A DNA stretch of 64,000 nt from Microbacterium sp. GTDB taxonomy: Bacteria; Actinomycetota; Actinomycetes; Actinomycetales; Microbacteriaceae. How positions within the stretch are numbered: the stretch's first letter is position 1; every line of letters starts with the position of its first letter. The notes beneath the pieces are model-generated. The model was not told the origin of the DNA. It did not search any database and saw only the letters and a list, made by a program, of their open reading frames with translations. Both the position numbers and the translations under genes were made by a program. Shown here piece after piece: positions 5,837 to 52,770 of this stretch. The stretch is taken from positions 682,001 to 746,000 of the forward strand of contig JAFKIL010000003.1 in assembly GCA_017306415.1 (NCBI GenBank), read 5' to 3'.

Positions 5837-5938
5837 GCGTACCGTTCTCAGGATCGACCACTCGCCGCGATCGGGCGACCCGCGGAATCCCGTGCCCCTG
5901 AGGTCGATGCCGACCCGCCGCTCCTGAGAACGGTACGC
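5837..5938. repeat. Palindromic element, family A copy 1
   Basis: A 102-bp element bounded by a perfect 17-bp inverted repeat: GCGTACCGTTCTCAGGA at 5837-5853 and its complement at 5922-5938. The 68-bp core is GC-rich. A second copy with the same arm sequence (19 bp perfect) is at 22444-22553, but the cores of the two are largely different. It fills much of the divergent gap between pxpA (minus) and the spermidine-synthase-like gene (plus), so it lies among their promoters. No coding capacity or transposase is seen. Confidence 0.85.
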
Positions 5939-22443: not shown

Positions 22444-22553
22444 CGTACCGTTCTCAGGATCGCCGGTGGTCGCCGCGCGACGCGGCTCCGGCGGGCTCGC
22501 GTTTTCCGCCCCCGTCACCGGACAGCCGTCCATTCGATCCTGAGAACGGTACG
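22444..22553. repeat. Palindromic element, family A copy 2
   Basis: A 110-bp element bounded by a perfect 19-bp inverted repeat: CGTACCGTTCTCAGGATCG at 22444-22462 and its complement at 22535-22553. Inside the arms CCGGTG (22463-22468) can also pair with CACCGG (22516-22521). The arms match copy 1 at 5837-5938, the core does not. It lies in the divergent gap between the ABC ATPase and the hemerythrin-like gene, ending about 30 bases before a likely -10 box (TAGCTT, 22582-22587). Confidence 0.87.
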
Positions 22554-26173: not shown

Positions 26174-26375
26174 GCCGCCGGTGCCGCAGTCCCGCGGCGC
26201 CCTTCGGGCGGCGCCCGCCAGTCCCGATGCCTGCGGCACCGGCGGCCTGACCGCTCCGCCATGACCCAGGCGCACCGCGGAGCGCTGCGGGGCTCCGCAT
26301 CGCTGGCATCGGGACTGGCGGGAGCGCCGGCCGCGAGGCCGACGCGGGGGCATGCGATGCGGAGCCCCGCAGCGC
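26174..26375. repeat. Three interlocked perfect inverted repeats
   Basis: Between the nitrilase and hydantoinase genes lie three perfect inverted repeats whose arms interleave: 16 bp at 26174-26189 with 26231-26246; 17 bp at 26214-26230 with 26306-26322; and 22 bp at 26282-26303 with 26354-26375. Inside the first, CGCCC-TTC-GGGCG (about 26199-26211) forms a tight inner hairpin. The pairs cannot all form as simple nested stems, because each overlaps the next. Few bases remain before the hydantoinase start at 26398. If transcribed with the operon it would be a large structured intercistronic RNA. Confidence 0.85.
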
Positions 26376-33836: not shown

Positions 33837-35258
33837 TCAGCCTTCGCGAGCCGGCTCGGACTCCTCCGAGGTCGTCTGCTCCTCGATGGTCACGGTCTCG
33901 TCGGGCTGCTCGAGCTCGTCGGGCTGGTCGGCATCCGTCTCCGGCTCCGCAGCCCCGGAGGCCTCGGGCTTCGCCTTCTTGGCTGACGCCTTCCTCACCG
34001 GGGTCTTCGCGGGTGCGTCGGCGTCGTCCGCGCTCCCGGCGTCCGCGGCATCCGCGCCGTCGAGGGACACCTCGGGGCGGATGAGCTCCTTGACCTCGGA
34101 CATGAAGCTCGTGAGCTGGTGCTGCTGCCAACGGAGGCTGCGGGTGCGGTCCTCCGCGTCGCGCAGCACAGACTGCGAATGCGCCGTGACGGTGTCGATG
34201 ATGCGCTGGGCCTTCGCGTGCGCGCGGTCCAGGTGCTCACGCGACCGCAGGTGCGCGTCGGCCTCGATCTGCGTAGCCTGGGCCCGCATCAGGCGGTCGA
34301 AGTCCTCCGCCTTGGCGGAGACCCGCTGCGCGTGCTCGAGGGATGCCGCGACCTGCTCGTTCGCATCCTGCGTGATGCGCTCGGCGTGGGCGACGGCCTG
34401 GTTGTGCAGCGCGAGGAACTCCTGCTGCGCGTCGTCCTGGCGCCGCGTGAGGGACTCCTCGAACTCGAGGGCGCGCAGCCGCAGCTCCTTGACGGCCTCC
34501 TCCGCCTCGGTGCGCATGTCGGTCGTCTCGCGCGCGACCATCGAGCGCAGGGCGGCGGCGCCCTTCTCGGCCTCGGAGCGGATCGCCGCCGCCTCCTGCT
34601 CGGCCTGAGCGACCTTCTCCGCCGCGTGTGCGGCCTCGCGCTCGATCTGCGCCTGGTGGGCCGTCAGCTCCGTGTCGATGCGGAGCCGCACCTGCTGGGC
34701 GTCGTGCTGCGCGGCGGAGCGGATCGCGTCGGCATCGACCTGGGCCTCTTCGCGGCGCACCCGGATCTCCTCGCGCGCGGCCTCGAGCAGCCGGTCGCCC
34801 TGCACGGTGGCGTTCTTGAGCACGAGACTCGCCTGGTCCTCGGCGACCCGCAGGATCTCCTCGAAGCGGTGGGGGTTGTCACCCTCCGCGTCGGCGCCCA
34901 CGAGTCCCTCGCTGAGGACCTGCACCTGGTTCTGCGCATCTTCGGCCTGCGCCTCAGCGGCGGCCAGATCGGCGCGCAGACTCTCGATGGTCTCCTGGCT
35001 GTGCGCATCGGCGTCGGCCTGGCGGCGACGGTGGTCCTCCTCGAGTCCGGACAGCCGTTCGGTGAGAGCGGCGAGCCGGCCGTTCAGGTCGGCGATGGCC
35101 GCGTCGACCTCGGTGCGCTCGTATCCGCGGAACGCGGTGGAGAACGCATGGCCTCCCCCGGGAGCAGCGCCCGGGGCGGACCCCGAGCCCACGCCCGCGA
35201 TGAGCTCGTCGAACGGGGAACCCGCGGCCTCGTCGTCCGGCACCTGCTGATCGGCCAT
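33837..35258 (-). CDS. DivIVA-like coiled-coil protein
   Basis: A 473-residue protein. Residues about 40-65 (AFSTAFRGYERTEVDAAIAD) match the DivIVA N-terminal motif, and residues 65-395 are nearly continuous coiled coil rich in Ala, Glu, Arg and Gln. The C-terminus is a Lys/Ala then acidic tail (KASAKKAKPEASG, EQPDETVTIEEQ). DivIVA/Wag31-type proteins organise polar growth and cell division in actinobacteria; this longer version may be a paralogue rather than Wag31 itself. The ATG at 35258 has GGGAGC before it and is preferred over an ATG 48 codons upstream in a Pro/Arg-rich stretch. Confidence 0.8.
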   Translation of the reverse strand: MADQQVPDDEAAGSPFDELIAGVGSGSAPGAAPGGGHAFSTAFRGYERTEVDAAIADLNGRLAALTERLSGLEEDHRRRQADADAHSQETIESLRADLAAAEAQAEDAQNQVQVLSEGLVGADAEGDNPHRFEEILRVAEDQASLVLKNATVQGDRLLEAAREEIRVRREEAQVDADAIRSAAQHDAQQVRLRIDTELTAHQAQIEREAAHAAEKVAQAEQEAAAIRSEAEKGAAALRSMVARETTDMRTEAEEAVKELRLRALEFEESLTRRQDDAQQEFLALHNQAVAHAERITQDANEQVAASLEHAQRVSAKAEDFDRLMRAQATQIEADAHLRSREHLDRAHAKAQRIIDTVTAHSQSVLRDAEDRTRSLRWQQHQLTSFMSEVKELIRPEVSLDGADAADAGSADDADAPAKTPVRKASAKKAKPEASGAAEPETDADQPDELEQPDETVTIEEQTTSEESEPAREG

Positions 35259-35470
35259 CGCCGCTCCCGTTCGTCGTCGCAATCCCCCGCGGGGCAGAGC
35301 GGACGAGCGTCCGGCTGCGGGCGACCAGAGCGAGTCAGGGACTCGCGGGATCGCGGCCTCCTCCGGGGGATCGAGGGGGCCGGTGAGGCGTATCGGTGAC
35401 ACGCTCCGCCTCGCGAAACACTACCCGTTCGGGCCGCGCGGCGGGAGTGCGGATCGAGGGGCGCCCGCGT

Positions 35471-36058
35471 TCAGCGCAGGGCGCCCACGCTCGCGAGCGC
35501 CAGCCGCACGAGGGTGCCGCGACCGCCCTCCATCTCGGCGGCCAGGGCATCGGATGCCGCCTCGCCGGGCGTCAACCAGGTGACCTCGAGCGCGTCCTGC
35601 CGCGGCTCGCACGTGCCCGTGACCGGGACGACGAACGCGAGCGAGACGGCGTGCTGCCGGTCGTCGTGGTAGGCGCTCACGCCCGGGATCGGGAAGTACT
35701 CCGCGACCGTGAACGGTGTCGGCTGCGGCGGCAGGAGCGGGAAGGCCATCGGGCCGAGGTCGTTCTCGAGGTGCCGGAACAGGGCGTCCCGGACCGTCTC
35801 GCCGTACCGCACCCGCCCGGAGACGATCGTGCGCGTCATCTCGCCGAGCGGCGTGGCGCGCAGCAGGATGCCGACCTCGGTGACCGTGCCCATCCCGTCC
35901 GTCCGGACCGGCACGGCCTCGACGTAGAGCATCGGGAGCCGACGCCGCGACTCGGCCAGCTCGATGTCGCTCAGCCATGCCGGGTTCGACACGTTCCCCG
36001 GCGGAGGACCGAAGGGGTCGTCGCCGGCGGGCTCGGGGTCAGGCGTGCGGACAGGCAT
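35471..36058 (-). CDS. NUDIX-like protein (DUF4916 type)
   Basis: A 195-residue protein with a NUDIX-like core. The segment GRVRYGETVRDALFRHLENDLG stands at the NUDIX box but lacks the full REUXEE set of metal ligands, and LPMLYVEAVPVRTD and EVGILLRATPLGEMTRTI fit the surrounding strands. I associate it with the actinobacterial DUF4916 group; hydrolase activity is uncertain. It is transcribed away from the esterase gene, with 88 bases between starts. Confidence 0.7.
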   Translation of the reverse strand: MPVRTPDPEPAGDDPFGPPPGNVSNPAWLSDIELAESRRRLPMLYVEAVPVRTDGMGTVTEVGILLRATPLGEMTRTIVSGRVRYGETVRDALFRHLENDLGPMAFPLLPPQPTPFTVAEYFPIPGVSAYHDDRQHAVSLAFVVPVTGTCEPRQDALEVTWLTPGEAASDALAAEMEGGRGTLVRLALASVGALR

Positions 36059-36146
36059 ACCCCCTTTGTACCCCACACCCCGCCCACGGCCCGCTCCACG
36101 GCGCCGCGGTCGGTCCGGGGTCGGACGCCCCTGGGATGATGGGGGC

Positions 36147-36812
36147 ATGAGCGACGCGGCCGACCTCCCCGACCTCGACGACGCCACCGTGCTGTGGTCC
36201 GCGGGCGCGGACGAGCGCGCCGGGCGCCCCCTGCTCGTGATGCTGCACGGGTACGGCGCGGACGAGCACGACCTCTTCGGACTCGCCGCCTTCCTCCCCG
36301 ACCAGTACGTGATCGCGGCGCTGCGCGCCCCGCTCGCACCGCCGTGGCCGGCCCCGGGGTACTCGTGGTATCCGATCGACGGCATCGACGGGCGCGACGC
36401 GTCGGGCGTCACCGCGGCGGCGGAGCGGCTGCTGGCGTGGGTCGAGGCGCACGCCCCGGCGCCGGCGCGGGTCGGACTCCTCGGCTTCTCCCAGGGCGCG
36501 TCGGTCGCCCTCCAGGCGCTGCGATGCGCTCCGGACCGGTTCGCGTTCGCCGTGAACCTCAGCGGCTACGTCGCTCCGGGCGCGCTCGACCATGACGAAG
36601 AGCTTGCGGCACGGCGCATCCCGGTGTTCTGGGGTCGGGGCACCCGTGACGACGTCATCCCCCCGTACCTCGTCGCGCACACCGCGCAGTGGCTCCCCGA
36701 TCACGCCGACCTCAGCGGGCGCGTCTACGTCGGACTCACGCACAGCGTGTCCGAGCAGGAGCTCGACGACGTGCGGACCTTCCTCGAGAAGCGCCTCGCG
36801 GACCCGTCCTGA
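36147..36812 (+). CDS. Alpha/beta hydrolase (phospholipase/carboxylesterase family)
   Basis: A 221-residue serine hydrolase. HGYGADEHDL (near 35-44) is the oxyanion region, GFSQGAS (near 116-122) is the nucleophile elbow with Ser, GRGTRDDVIP supplies the acidic residue, and the catalytic His lies in VGLTHSVSEQE. This matches the short carboxylesterase/lysophospholipase group. The natural ester is unknown. No cytoplasmic export signal is present. Confidence 0.85.
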   Translation: MSDAADLPDLDDATVLWSAGADERAGRPLLVMLHGYGADEHDLFGLAAFLPDQYVIAALRAPLAPPWPAPGYSWYPIDGIDGRDASGVTAAAERLLAWVEAHAPAPARVGLLGFSQGASVALQALRCAPDRFAFAVNLSGYVAPGALDHDEELAARRIPVFWGRGTRDDVIPPYLVAHTAQWLPDHADLSGRVYVGLTHSVSEQELDDVRTFLEKRLADPS

Positions 36813-36897
36813 CGAGCCGCGAACGGGCTTCGCTCTGGCGCCCGCCGCGGCCGTCGGCTAAGCTGACCCGGCCCTGGTCCCGAGTGTGAGGAATGAG

Positions 36898-36927
36898 ATG
36901 ACGGAGATCGTCGCGACCGCGCTGTGA
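36898..36927 (+). CDS. Putative leader peptide MTEIVATAL upstream of the ABC-F gene
   Basis: A nine-codon ORF with a GAGG ribosome site at 36888-36891, 6 bases before its ATG. It lies in the 283-base untranslated region of the ABC-F gene, whose own ribosome site is enclosed by a hairpin. Antibiotic-resistance ABC-F genes are often controlled by ribosome stalling on such short leaders. Translation of this one is inferred from position and ribosome site only. Confidence 0.45.
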   Translation: MTEIVATAL

Positions 36928-37047
36928 TGCGCTGATCCGTCGATCCACGACGCGTCGCCATCGCAGAGAACCGCTGCCCAGCATCCGCTGCCGCAGCCCG
37001 TTCCGCGCCGACCGTCGATCCTGCCGCCTCCACTCCCGGCCCCCGTT

Positions 37048-37093
37048 GGCCTCTCGCGGCTCCGCCGTCGGTGCACCCCCGACATCGGAGGCC
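37048..37093 (+). promoter_or_regulatory. Hairpin enclosing the ABC-F ribosome binding site
   Basis: GGCCTC (37048-37053) pairs with GAGGCC (37088-37093), which contains the Shine-Dalgarno sequence of the gene starting at 37096; GTCGG (37067-37071) pairs with CCGAC (37079-37083) inside. When folded, the ribosome site is hidden. Together with the upstream leader peptide this suggests translational attenuation. Confidence 0.5.
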
Positions 37094-37095
37094 GC

Positions 37096-38772
37096 ATGCC
37101 CGCTCCCACATCCACCCCCGCCATCGTCCTCGACCGCGTCTCGTTCGCGTGGCCGGACGGCTCCCCCGCCCTCGCCGAGGTGTCCGGGTCCTTCGGCTCC
37201 GGCCGCACCGGCCTCGTCGGCCGCAACGGCTCCGGCAAGTCCACGCTGCTGCGCCTGATCGCCGGGGAGCTCGCGCCCGGTTCGGGGCACATCGCCACGA
37301 CGGCGGACGTCGCTTACCTCCCCCAGCAGCTCACGCTCGCCGTCGACCGCCCGGTCGCCGAGCTCCTCGGCGTCGCCGAGACGCTCGCCGCCCTGCGCGC
37401 GATCGAGGCGGGCGACGCCGACCCCCGCCACTTCGAGGCGGTCGGATCCGACTGGGACGTCGAGGCGCGCGCGACGGCCGCCCTCGCCGAGGCCGGCCTC
37501 CCCGCCGATGCGCTCGACCGCCGCGTCGGCGAGCTGTCCGGCGGAGAGGCCGTGCTCGCCGCGGTGTGCGGCATCCGCCTGCGCGGAGCGCCCATCGCCC
37601 TGCTCGACGAGCCGACGAACAACCTCGACCGCGACGCGCGGGCACGCCTCGGCGAGCTCGTGCGCGGATGGCGCGGGACGCTCGTGGTCGTGAGCCACGA
37701 CCTCGCGCTCCTCGAGCTGATGGACGACACCGCCGAGCTCTACGACAGCGAGCTGTCCGTGTTCGGAGGCCCGTACTCGGCGTGGCGCACGTGGCTCGAC
37801 GGCGAGCAGGACGCCGCGCGTCAGGCCGAGCGCACGGCCGCGCAGACGCTCCGCCGGGAGAAGCGGGAGCGGATCGCAGCCGAGACGACCCTGTCGCACC
37901 GCGCGGCGATGGGCCGGAAGGCGCAGCTGGAGAAGCGCGTGCCGAAGATCATCGCCGGCGGCAGGAAGATGTCCGCGGAGGTGTCAGCCGGAAAGCTCCG
38001 GGGAGAGAAGGCCGACCGCGAGGCATCCGCCCGCGCGGCGCTGGATGCCGCGGGGCGCCGCGTCCGCGGCGACGCCGCCCTGCACATCGACCTCCCCGAC
38101 CCCGACGTCCCGTCGGGCCGCCGGATCGCCACGATCACCGACGGCGCGCACGCGTGGGTCGTGCAGGGGCCCGAGCGCGTGGCCCTGATCGGGCCGAACG
38201 GCATCGGCAAGACCACGCTTCTCGAGGAGCTGGTGGGTTCGACGACGGGGTTCGGCGTGCAGAACTCCACGGATCCGGTGCCGGACGGCGCGGCGGGCGC
38301 CGATCAGCGCGGATCCGCGGCGATTCCGTGGAGTTCTGCACAGGCCTGGCCGCACACCGACCGGATCGGCTACCTGCCGCAGCGCGTGGACGGGCTGGAC
38401 GAGGACGCCTCGGTGCTCGAGAACGTGCGGGCCGCCGCGCCGGATCTCCCCACGGCGGAGATGCGCAATCGCCTCGCGCGGTTCCTCCTCCGCGGGGCGG
38501 CGGTCGACCGGCCCGTCTCGACGCTGTCCGGCGGCGAACGGTTCCGCGTCGCCCTGGCCCGGCTGCTGCTGGCCGACCCCCCGCCGCAGCTCCTCGTCCT
38601 CGACGAGCCCACGAACAACCTCGACATCGACACCGTGGACCAGCTCGTCGGCGCCCTGTCGTCGTATCGGGGCGCGGTGCTCGTGGTGAGCCATGACGAC
38701 GCGTTCCTCGCGCGTCTCGGCGTCGACCTCACGCTCGAGCTCACCCCGGAGGGCCTCGTGGCGCATCGATGA
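37096..38772 (+). CDS. ABC-F family ATPase, probable ribosome-protection protein
   Basis: A 558-residue protein with two ATPase domains and no membrane segments. First domain: Walker [10 protein letters not shown] (about 42-50), signature [12 protein letters not shown], Walker [13 protein letters not shown] basic linker follows at about 240-330 ([32 protein letters not shown]), the part that reaches into the ribosome in this family. Second domain: [40 protein letters not shown] palindromic element is inserted in frame between Walker A and the Q-loop of the second domain (residues 388-416). The long leader region with a short ORF suggests antibiotic-inducible expression. Which drug it answers to cannot be told. 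Confidence 0.9.
38257..38341. repeat. Palindromic element inside the ABC-F coding sequence
   Basis: An 85-bp element bounded by a perfect 17-bp inverted repeat: GTGCAGAACTCCACGGA at 38257-38273 and its complement at 38325-38341. It starts exactly on a codon boundary and stays in frame, adding about 28 residues ([11 protein letters not shown]... ...IPWSSAQ) in a loop where other ABC-F proteins have only a short link. Size and plan match the intergenic palindromes elsewhere in the window, but the arm sequence is different. Confidence 0.85.
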
Positions 38773-38830
38773 GACGGATCCGGGGGACAGCCCCCGCGCG
38801 CATCGGGCCGACGCGACGCAGGATGGACCC

Positions 38831-39013
38831 ATGAACGAACTCGTCCGTCCCCTGCGCGGCCGCTGGATCGCCGGGGTGTGCCTCGCCCTCTCGCACAGAT
38901 TCGGCATGTCGGTGAGCACCGTCCGCGCCCTCACGATCGTGGCCATGGTGCTCCTCGGACTGCCGCTGTGGGCCTACGTCATCCTCTGGATCGTCATCCC
39001 CAGCGAGCGCTGA
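38831..39013 (+). CDS. PspC-domain small membrane protein
   Basis: A 60-residue PspC-domain protein: LVRPLRGRWIAGVCLALSHR followed by one membrane segment (VRALTIVAMVLLGLPLWAYVILWIVIP). PspC domains occur in membrane stress responses and as sensors linked to two-component systems; a stand-alone version in actinobacteria has no assigned role. It is a separate unit between the ABC-F gene and the Lhr helicase. Confidence 0.85.
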   Translation: MNELVRPLRGRWIAGVCLALSHRFGMSVSTVRALTIVAMVLLGLPLWAYVILWIVIPSER

Positions 39014-39093
39014 GCCGCCGCCCGCGGGACCGGCGGCACTTCGCCCGGAGCGAAGCCTGTCCGGATGTCGGTGCCACCGGGGAAGATGGAGGG

Positions 39094-42000
39094 ATGGGCG
39101 ACGTCCTCGATCGGTTCGGCGCGGCGACGCAGGACTGGTTCCGCGGCGCCTTCGCGCGGCCGACCGACGCCCAGGCGGGCGCGTGGGAGGCCATCTCGGC
39201 CGGCAGGCACGCGCTCGTCGTCGCCCCGACCGGCTCGGGCAAGACGCTGTCCGCGTTCCTCTGGGCGATCGACCGCGTCTTCCACGACAAGGATGCCGCG
39301 ACCGGCGAATCCGGCAGGAAGGCGTCCGCGCGCGGGCGGGTCCCGACGTCGACGCGCACCAAGGTCCTGTACGTCTCGCCGCTGAAGGCGCTCGGCGTCG
39401 ACGTCGAGCGCAACCTCCGCTCCCCCCTCGTCGGCATCACGCAGTCGGCCCGGCGGCTGGGTGTGACCGTGCCGGACGTCACGGTGGGCGTGCGCTCGGG
39501 GGACACCGCGTCACCCGACCGGCGCCGGCTGCTCGTCGATCCGCCGGACATCCTCATCACGACCCCCGAGTCGCTGTACCTGATGCTCACCAGCCAGGCG
39601 TCCGAGACGCTGCGCGGCGTCCACACCGTGATCGTCGACGAGGTGCACGCTGTCGCGGCGACCAAGCGCGGCGCGCACCTGGCCGTCAGCCTCGAGCGCC
39701 TCGACGCGCTGCTCGAGCGGCCGGCGCAGCGCATCGGCCTCTCGGCGACCGTGCGGCCGATCGATGAGGTGGCGCGCTTCCTCGGCGGGTCGGCACCCGT
39801 CGACATCGTCGCCCCGAAGGCGACCAAGGCGTTCGACCTGAGCGTCGTCGTGCCCGTCGACGACATGCTCAACCCGCCGCCTCCGCCGGGGAGTCCTCCC
39901 GAGCCCGCGACGGCGGAGGGCGACGACGCCGCTGCCGAGGGCGACGGCGACTGGTTCGCGCCGCGTCCCGAAAACACCGAGATGACGGGCTCCGTCTGGC
40001 CGCACGTCGAAGAGGCCATCGTCGACCGCATCCTGCAGCATCGGTCCACGATCGTGTTCTCGAACTCGCGCCGGCTGGCGGAGCGGCTGACGGGTCGGCT
40101 CAACGAGATCTACTCCGAGCGACTCGGGCTCGACCTCCCGGAGCAGAGGGTCCCGGCCGCAATGATGGCCCAGGCCGGAGCCACGGCGGGCGCCGACCCC
40201 GTGCTCGCGAAGGCGCACCACGGCTCGGTGTCGAAGGAGCAGCGGGCCCAGGTCGAGGAGGAGCTGAAGTCCGGTGCGCTGCGCTGCGTCGTGGCGACAT
40301 CGAGCCTGGAGCTCGGCATCGACATGGGCGCGGTCGACCTCGTGATCCAGGTCGAGGCGCCCCCGTCGGCGGCGTCCGGGCTGCAGCGCGTCGGGCGCGC
40401 AGGACACCAGGTCGGCGAGGTGAGCAGGGCGGCGCTCTTCCCGAAGCACCGCGGCGACGTGCTGCACACCGCGGTCGTGACCGAGCGGATGCTCGCGGGC
40501 CAGATCGAGGCGATCTCCGTGCCGCAGAATCCGCTCGACATCCTCGCGCAGCAGACGGTCGCGGCATCCGCCCTGGGCCCCGTCGACGTGGAGGGGTGGT
40601 ACGAGACGGTACGTCGCAGCGCGCCCTTCCGCACGCTGCCGCGCTCCGCGTACGAGGCGACGCTCGACCTCCTCGCGGGCCGGTTCCCGTCCGACGAGTT
40701 CGCCGAGCTGCGGCCACGGCTGGTGTGGGACCGCGATCAGGGCACGCTCACCGGGCGCCCGGGCGCGCAGCGGATCGCGGTGACGAGCGGCGGGACGATC
40801 CCGGACCGTGGACTGTTCGGCGTGTTCGTGGCGGGCGAGACCCGCAACGCCCGCGTCGGCGAGCTCGACGAGGAGATGGTCTACGAGTCGCGCGTCGGCG
40901 ACGTCTTCACCCTCGGCACCACGAGCTGGCGCATCGTCGAGATCACTCACGACCGCGTCAACGTCCTCCCCGCCTTCGGGCAGCCGGGCAAGGTGCCGTT
41001 CTGGCACGGCGACGGCATCGGGCGTCCTGCCGAGCTCGGTGAGGCGCTCGGCCGGTTCTCCCGCGACGTGTCGACCGTCGCTCCCGAGAAGGCGCAGGAA
41101 CGCCTGGCCGAGGCCGGACTCGACGACCGTGCGTCGGCCAACCTGCTGGCCTACCTCGCCGAGCAGCGGGAGTCGACCGGAACCCTCCCGACCGACCGCC
41201 AGCTGACCGTGGAGCGCTCGCGCGACGAGGTCGGCGACTGGCGCGTCATCCTGCATTCCCCGTACGGCATGCAGGTGCATGCGCCCTGGGCGCTGGCGGT
41301 CAACGCGCGCATCCGTGAGCGCCTCGGCGTCGAGGGCTCGGCGGTCGCGAGCGACGACGGCATCATCGCCCGGGTGCCGGACGCCACGGCCGAGCCGCCG
41401 GGTGCCGAGCTGTTCGTCTTCGATCCGGACGAGCTCGACCAGATCGTCACCGACGAGGTCGGGGGATCGGCGCTGTTCGCCTCGCGGTTCCGCGAGTGCG
41501 CGGCGCGGGCGCTGCTGATGCCGCGCCTCAACCCCGGCCGTCGCAGCCCGCTGTGGCAGCAGCGGCAGCGCTCCGCGCAGCTGCTGGAGGTGGCGAAGCG
41601 GTATCCGACGTTCCCGATCATCCTCGAGACCCTGCGCGAGGTGCTGCAGGACGTCTACGACGTGCCCGCGCTGCTGCGCATCGTCCGCGGCATCGCCGAC
41701 CGGCGCATCCGGCTCGTCGAGGTCACGACCTCGCAGCCGTCCCCCTTCGCGCGCGACCTGCTGTTCGGGTACGTGGGCGCGTTCATGTACGAGGGCGACT
41801 CACCGCTCGCCGAACGGCGGGCGGCGGCGCTGTCGGTCGATCCGGCCCTCCTCAGCGAGCTGCTGGGCAAGGTCGAGATGCGGGAGCTCCTCGACCCCGA
41901 GGTGATCGCGCAGTTCGAGCGCGAGGCGCAGCGACGCGATCCGGAGCGTCGCGCGCGCGGCATCGAGGGGGTCGCCGATCTGCTCCGGATGCTCGGACCG

Positions 42001-52616: not shown

Positions 52617-52634
52617 CGACGGGCCGCGCGTCGC

Positions 52635-52700
52635 AAAAGCAGGCCGAGACGTCGGATCGCCCCTTTCCCGCGCGCGTATCGCGCGATTCGGCCTGCTTTT
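52635..52700. terminator. Palindrome in the cupin-pucR convergent gap
   Basis: Perfect 13-bp arms, AAAAGCAGGCCGA at 52635-52647 and its complement at 52688-52700, enclose 40 bases containing CGCGCG-TAT-CGCGCG. The right arm ends in TTTT and the left starts with AAAA, so transcripts from either side would carry a stem followed by a short U run. It lies between convergent genes, consistent with a two-way terminator. Confidence 0.6.
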
Positions 52701-52770
52701 CCTACGCCATCGGTAGGAGAGATCGGTCGGCGACCCCGTGCCGCGTCGCCCGGGCGCGGTCACGCGGGCA

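Follow-up and report, generated by a model that had tools for sequence, protein, structure and literature searches.

A palindromic insert in a Microbacterium ABC-F gene is probably one copy of a REPIN-like element partnered with a winged-helix Vsr-type nuclease

How can a long, perfect palindrome reside within the reading frame of a conserved ATPase gene? This question is raised by a stretch of Microbacterium sp. DNA of 64,000 nucleotides (the window), in which two perfect 17-bp inverted arms at positions 38257 to 38341 frame a core of 51 bp, as is evident from inspection of the sequence. The left arm, GTGCAGAACTCCACGGA, spans nucleotides 38257 to 38273, and its exact reverse complement spans nucleotides 38325 to 38341; pairing continues from the arms into the core only partly (35 nt, 77%). 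The surrounding open reading frame (ORF), which encodes 558 amino acids, is uninterrupted across the insert, whose first base is also the first base of codon 388. A preliminary description of this DNA had reported perfect arms inside an intact ABC-F frame, a start on a codon boundary and a location between Walker A and the Q-loop of the second ATPase domain. All three points are borne out: the ORF remains open, the insert opens a codon, and it lies between the motifs GPNGIGKTT and GYLPQ of a protein with two ABC_tran stretches (Pfam). The same description counted about 28 extra residues where the family normally has a short linker. The linker is indeed longer than that of short-linker orthologs, but 85 bp is not a multiple of three.

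Coordinates of the elements and genes discussed in the text. Plain positions refer to the window, and positions with a contig label refer to genome G000.
Feature	Location	Strand	Remarks
Family A paired-arm element	38257..38341	.	Arms 38257-38273 and 38325-38341; core 38274-38324 unrelated to other copies
ABC-F ATPase gene carrying the family A element in frame	37096..38772	+	Element in variable linker, Walker A to Q-loop, second ATPase domain
Family B element	5837..5938	.	Arms GCGTACCGTTCTCAGGA, 17-bp perfect; between divergent genes
Family B element, longest span seen	22446..22551	.	106 bp from arm end to arm end, roughly a helical turn above the 96-bp class
Family E element	52634..52701	.	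Arms like GTCGGAAAAGCAGGCT; 68 bp between arm ends
Nuclease gene between A elements	elements at C4:355758 and 356595
Nuclease gene between B elements	elements at C4:378578 and 379627
Nuclease gene between C elements	elements at C7:164326 and 165371
Nuclease gene between E elements	C1, in L210

Orthologs had been expected to lack the insert. This is true of some, including members of the same genus, whose linkers measure only 66 to 105 nt, but the closest ortholog (genome G010) carries identical arms around a different core, and several others carry linker elements with other arms. The arms of the window element are present at the ABC-F site in three further species (G010, G376, and B35-30), and thus this insertion is not recent. 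Within the gene, arms and span were kept in four genomes while the cores diverged. We propose that the copy would be tolerated as an in-frame sequence in a linker loop that accepts many sequences, and that its role within the ABC-F protein is probably nil, which would explain why a palindrome in so conserved a gene does no harm. In the ABC-F gene of G012 (L069), the linker reaches 312 nt and, together with its element, appears to be tandemly duplicated within the reading frame.

The arm pair recurs elsewhere in the genome. A search with a 16-nt arm sequence, permitting up to two mismatches, returned 45 matches compared with none for the reversed control, and all 33 matches with no or one mismatch fall in 19 paired elements of genome G000 that constitute family A. 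Their span, measured with the 16-mers, is 84 bp in 16 elements, 83 bp in two and 96 bp in one; between arm ends, family A spans are 81 to 82 bp, with one of 94 bp. The cores of 68 family A elements from several species are no more alike (mean best pairwise identity 0.44) than shuffled sequences (0.42), and close core pairs come only from near-identical genomes or from one tandem copy. These 68 elements were collected largely by exact arm patterns, so arm conservation among them is partly built in, and the search permitting two mismatches provides the less biased count. As the preliminary description had foreseen, the arm pair is found elsewhere with different cores, in 19 dispersed copies; it is not confined to the ABC-F site, nor do all orthologs share the same 28 residues. 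What has to be abandoned is the notion of a conserved 85-bp unit, as only the arms and the span are conserved.

An exact family A arm pair, sought with a gapped pattern allowing spans of 70 to 100 bp, is present in 10 of 366 genomes of the genus (G000 included). It also occurs in 42 stretches of contigs from named genomes, which include M. ulmi, M. allomyrinae, and M. trichothecenolyticum. The pair is absent from the viral contigs searched. We rejected a phage or plasmid origin on this ground and because the plasmid matches to window positions 34000 to 42000 (12 records) fall at helicase and ABC-type genes. Most copies are intergenic. With genes called by a home-made program based on codon usage, only 9 of 51 entries overlap a gene, and family C elements read a second time account for two of the 51; spread through coding sequence, as originally envisaged, is therefore the exception. 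In 806 kb of G000, 12 copies lie between convergent genes and six between divergent genes, against intergenic base rates of 35 and 90, respectively. The neighboring genes, going by their putative names, share no theme by eye. On the basis of these two observations, we also discarded the idea that the arms are operators of a transcription factor regulon.

At least six further families are built like family A; the arms differ from one family to the next, and the span is nearly constant within each. An inverted-repeat scan of the same 806 kb identified families B (TACCGTTCTCAGGA), C (CGGAGATGTGCA), D (CAGATTCAGGA), E (GAAAAGCAGGCT), H (ATCGGTCGCAAA), and K (CCGTTTACGGAC), whereas family G (TACCCAACTCAGGA) is a B-like variant with one copy. 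Between arm ends, spans are 62 bp for C, 68 to 69 for D, 68 for E, 63 to 64 for H, 64 for K, and 85, 96 or 106 for B. One A, two B, and one E element are located in the window. The cores appear unrelated within families A, B, D, E, and H. In family C, the arm motif is repeated further inward (TGTGCAG..CGGA) at a pitch of approximately 18 bp, and the copies beside the C nuclease gene described below (C7:164326-164387 and 165371-165432) have nearly identical cores. Family K is the least typical in that its inner sequence is conserved too. No family was seen when a 400-kb sample of genome G014 was scanned for inverted repeats.

The spans offer a clue to the form in which the elements act. Among 31 family B pairs, the span measured with 15-mers is 82 bp (two pairs), 83 (five), 93 (two), 94 (18), 95 (three) or 104 (one), and these classes differ by about one helical turn. 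Pairs of CTCAGGA arms in other species are mostly separated by 60, 69 to 70 or 82 bp among the matches listed, and pairs of CCGAACTCCTC in genome G127 have spans of 80 bp (42 pairs), 79 (three), 77 (one), 68 (one), and 92 (three). The patterns admitted spans of 60 to 90 bp for CTCAGGA pairs and 68 to 92 bp for the arms from G127 and G103, such that the clusters at 60, 68, and 92 bp coincide with pattern limits, and shorter or longer spans could be missed. Furthermore, the AT content in the cores of 49 family A elements peaks every 10 bp or so, a periodicity that none of 2000 shuffles equaled in strength. Span steps of about one helical turn together with this core period suggest two protein sites on one DNA duplex rather than an RNA hairpin, and the elements as read from their sequences fit two sites on one face of a bent duplex.

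A candidate for a protein that would occupy these sites is encoded next to the elements. Families A, B, C, and E of G000 each flank, on both sides, a gene whose product joins an AbiEi-like winged helix to a Vsr/DUF559-type nuclease domain (see the table). A fifth such gene (C13:147280) has no flanking elements, and none of the five nuclease genes found in this genome could be paired with family D, G, H, or K. The preliminary description had recognized the palindromic insert but missed these genes, which alter its meaning. The family A nuclease gene is interrupted in G000 (C4:355758-356678; L207 5759-6679), where a single frame is open across the C-terminal part alone, and three relatives (L106, L120, and L141) have an open nuclease gene at the corresponding place, next to a gene that we take to encode an adenosine deaminase. 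All the same, 19 family A elements with mostly intact arms persist in G000 despite the broken gene.

The domain assignments vary in strength among the proteins. Scores against PF13338 (cut-off 25 bits) are 32.9 for the C13 protein, 24.0 for that of M. ulmi, 22.7 for that of G295, and 14.5 for the family E protein, with no match for the family B protein; the winged helix gives weak AbiEi-type matches in both Pfam and PADLOC. For the catalytic domain, PF04480 is above cut-off in three of five nuclease proteins scanned, and PF18741 matches the E, B, and A (M. ulmi) proteins with E values of 6e-8 to 1.4e-7, which lie below its cut-off. A match to PDB 3hrl has an E value of 8e-7, and that to PDB 3r3p, a mobile intron protein, only 0.95. 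Across 39 nuclease sequences, residues E197, D224, D236, H241, D250, and D254 are invariant and E234 nearly so. Four of the proteins have no match in NCBIfam, and three yield one weak match in PHROGs. A structure predicted from three sequences is of low quality (pLDDT 52.9). Judging from the conserved acidic and histidine residues and the domain matches, the partner is a predicted PD-(D/E)XK nuclease of the Vsr/DUF559 (MTES_1575) type with an AbiEi-like winged helix. Related genes are present in 104 of 150 genomes, and in 63 of 85 genera, searched in the bacterial family.

The association extends beyond one genome. We scored a locus as flanked when at least 10 of 14 columns agree across its four arms and the two spans are equal to within 2 bp. 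By this rule, 35 of the 50 nuclease genes from the genus lie between matched elements, as do 8 of the 19 from other genera of the family; the remaining 15 and 11 loci, respectively, fail it. The 50 genus loci comprise the 30 best profile matches and 20 chosen by species for the ABC-F comparison below; the loci from other genera are the top match in each of 20, of which one was dropped at a contig end. Controls passed at one of 221 places (none of 100 random places in G014, one of 100 in G000, and none of 21 ABC-F loci). Arm distance also follows protein distance (Mantel r = 0.44, p = 0.0005, n = 34), although related loci are not independent.

Two further comparisons linked nuclease genes to elements at a distance. 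Arms taken from the nuclease flanks of G127 and G103 were searched in 34 genomes, which yielded 50 copies in G127 and six in G103, some of them adjoining the nuclease gene, and none in 31 of the 32 other genomes. The exception is G185, with three copies that were not predicted. At G103 C11:20641-20720 and G185 C2:91139-91218, one arm is a coding-like sequence (THNPHKVEEFG), which we presume to resemble the N terminus of RdgB/Ham1, and the other arm is found at the fixed span; an element site may form around a pre-existing half-site.

For the ABC-F site, 13 species with linkers of at least 130 nt were compared with the arms and spans of 43 nuclease loci, where consensus strings stood for the A and B arms of G000 and some of the nuclease genes of each genome were sampled. 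Of these species, 11 have a nuclease locus of their own in the set. That locus ranks first in six (G000, G001, G012, G017, G018, and G019) and second in G010, where the G000 locus of the same family takes first place; it ranks third in G005, and 7th, 26th, and 39th in G021, G014, and G013, respectively. The result is clear in G000, G010, G012, G017, and G019, which score 21 to 28 of 28; scores in G001, G005, and G018 (17.8-19.2) are near the best for unrelated pairs (about 17-18.5), and values of 18 to 19 of 28 arise between unrelated species as well. The G014 linker matches the arms of the nuclease locus of G118 (22.5).

Taken at face value, these data lead us to a reading to which we assign a probability of roughly 0.7, namely that the insert belongs to a family of REPIN-like elements partnered with the winged-helix Vsr-type nuclease; binding, cutting, and mobilization by the enzyme are features that we infer from sequence. 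Two nuclease molecules would use their winged helices to bind both arms on one face of the duplex, whose core might be bent upon binding by analogy with AbiEi, which bends DNA at paired inverted repeats. The nuclease domain would then nick or cut at the bound element, and repair or replication after the cut could yield new copies nearby or elsewhere. Such nicking and copying might keep the arms matched to the enzyme, and elements adjoining the nuclease gene may double as its operator.

The history of individual elements bears on how far copying has to be invoked. At one orthologous place, which lies 3′ of a gene that presumably encodes adenosine deaminase, the family A arms and a span of 83 to 85 bp are kept in seven genomes while cores and intergenic flanks have diverged; in one of the seven, ASV49, another gene replaces the nuclease gene. 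Nine doublets, selected as near neighbors on one strand, lie 153 to 228 bp apart, and their elements are 0.93 to 1.00 identical in eight cases and 0.66 in one. The doublet flanks are only 0.28 to 0.52 identical, and unbroken identity ends 0 to 25 bp beyond the element as defined. Three other neighbor pairs in G000 (C10:67103, C4:378383, and C8) are only 63 to 70% alike. Because identity in doublets is confined to the element and arms are kept at orthologous loci, an element appears to be held for long periods at a single site, yet to be able to be copied whole in its own neighborhood. No core is shared among the dispersed copies of family A, and documented copying is thus limited to local duplications. 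We saw no target-site duplication by eye in family A flanks and found no clean empty site. At orthologous loci the cores change but the arms do not, a pattern more suggestive of selection acting on individual sites than of a purely selfish element.

Selection of this kind is the point of departure for the main rival to nuclease-driven copying, in which the sites serve the host. Here the winged-helix nuclease or a relative would use the arms as operators or chromosome-organizing sites, each kept by selection, duplications would arise by replication slippage, and the protein would be mainly a DNA binder that regulates itself, as does AbiEi, which autoregulates via paired inverted repeats (PMC7319586). 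Conservation at the seven-genome locus and the placement of elements on both sides of the nuclease gene speak for this account. We nonetheless hold it to be doubtful, in view of the deficit of copies between divergent genes relative to convergent ones (as scored with home-made gene calls), the lack of a theme by eye among neighboring genes, and the near-identical local copies that end close to the element boundary. Far less plausible is an origin as miniature inverted-repeat transposable elements (MITEs), the remnants of a conventional DDE transposon that no longer has an autonomous copy. Conserved terminal inverted arms and element-precise local copies have this appearance, and short transposons are expected to need helically phased ends. 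Among the arm matches inspected in G000, the good ones pair at short distance except for a few in the C8 cluster. MITEs, however, would be expected to share a core and leave target duplications, neither of which was seen apart from the core pairs noted above, and the gene found repeatedly between matched elements encodes a winged-helix Vsr-type nuclease.

Hairpins at the RNA level, in which the long stems act as terminators or mRNA stabilizers, would account for perfect stems of 12 to 20 bp that often lie at the 3′ ends of genes. This proposal seems very improbable to us, given that arm changes in family A are mostly one-sided rather than compensatory and that the positions of copies include gaps between divergent genes and the interior of a reading frame. 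Moreover, most core columns of the 68 family A elements pair no more than expected and the spans are quantized by about one DNA turn, and on these two grounds we rejected it. The palindromic elements of Rickettsia are inserted in frame inside genes, and the preliminary description had likened the ABC-F insert to them as a repeat spreading through coding sequence. An in-frame insertion that adds a loop to an intact gene is the shared trait, but the conserved body sequence expected of such an element is not found among the 68 family A cores, only arms and span being conserved, and the copies are mostly intergenic with coding insertions rare. The likeness is mostly refuted by the unrelated cores, and we find it scarcely credible as an explanation.

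Among known systems, the preferred nuclease-partnered element most closely resembles REPIN/RAYT as outlined by Bertels and Rainey (2011; PMC3116915). Both have two conserved inverted ends around a spacer that is less conserved but set in length. In both, a genome holds several families, the elements form tandem arrays and lie mostly outside genes, and an enzyme gene is found near its own elements, of which further copies are dispersed. The enzymes differ, as the Microbacterium partner combines a winged helix with a Vsr-like PD-(D/E)XK nuclease rather than being a Y1 HUH transposase. The RAYT domain Y1_Tnp (PF01797) was absent from 27 genomes of the same genus, several high-copy ones included, and was detected in 5 of 14 control genomes; RAYT was accordingly dismissed as the partner and, as this defining enzyme is absent, we do not class the Microbacterium elements as REPINs. 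REPINs are described as hairpins in single-stranded DNA or mRNA, whereas helical-turn span steps and unpaired cores point to duplex DNA here. One end of each REP reportedly carries a GTAG or CGTC tag (PMC3733652), and by eye this tag is absent from the arms of families A (GTGCAGAACTCCAC) and B (GTACCGTTCTCAGGA).

AbiEi, the antitoxin of the AbiE type IV toxin-antitoxin system, binds paired inverted repeats, bends DNA, and autoregulates (PMC7319586). Its N-terminal winged helix is apparently related to that of the Microbacterium proteins, in which a nuclease domain replaces the antitoxin domain. The arms described here lie approximately 40 to 80 bp apart at dozens of sites, in contrast to 3 or 13 bp at one operator. 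An AbiE system also has an adjacent gene for a DUF1814 nucleotidyltransferase toxin, and the neighbor at the family A nuclease locus looks instead like adenosine deaminase. The C-terminal catalytic domain resembles Vsr/DUF559/MTES_1575 endonucleases (PMC3710099). Searches of the open-access literature for DUF559 with inverted repeats, or with repeats and Microbacterium, returned nothing that joins them, and no title on DUF559/MTES_1575, title being the main basis of judgment, links the domain to a dispersed repeat family.

We lean, by a modest degree, toward the broader view that these elements represent an undescribed, family-wide class of mobile or commensal DNA, in which winged-helix Vsr-type nucleases would each have an arm "dialect" comprising two phased sites and a free core, enzyme and arms would coevolve, and differing dialects would occupy one gene site in different species. 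If correct, the REPIN idea would have arisen a second time, independently, with an unrelated enzyme that acts on duplex DNA, and a use would be at hand for a nuclease family of unknown function. The natural series of protein-arm pairs would also allow the DNA specificity of winged helices to be read, and the elements would serve as a natural assay of how DNA is phased and bent.

Several repeats depart from the common plan. For family K, no partner gene was found; the conserved stem of its four copies (C10:154531, C10:201061, C10:202200, and C7:149689), CCGTTTACGGACG.AACACGCCGC, is longer, and three of the copies lie between convergent genes, so K elements may be of a different kind. One intergenic region of G000 (C8:34793-35229; L203 8792-9232) holds seven family B arms, which make up two complete elements and three unpaired arms. 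Within the window, positions 26174 to 26375 contain nested long inverted repeats with arms of 22, 16, and 16 bp, for example GCGCTGCGGGGCTCCGCATCGC at 26282, that fall outside families A to K. Finally, a repeat of the genus, GGTCGTTGAGCGAGCGAAGCGAGACGAAACG, occurs in inverted pairs of approximately 88 to 104 bp at L156 11136, L110 4487, and L123 137.
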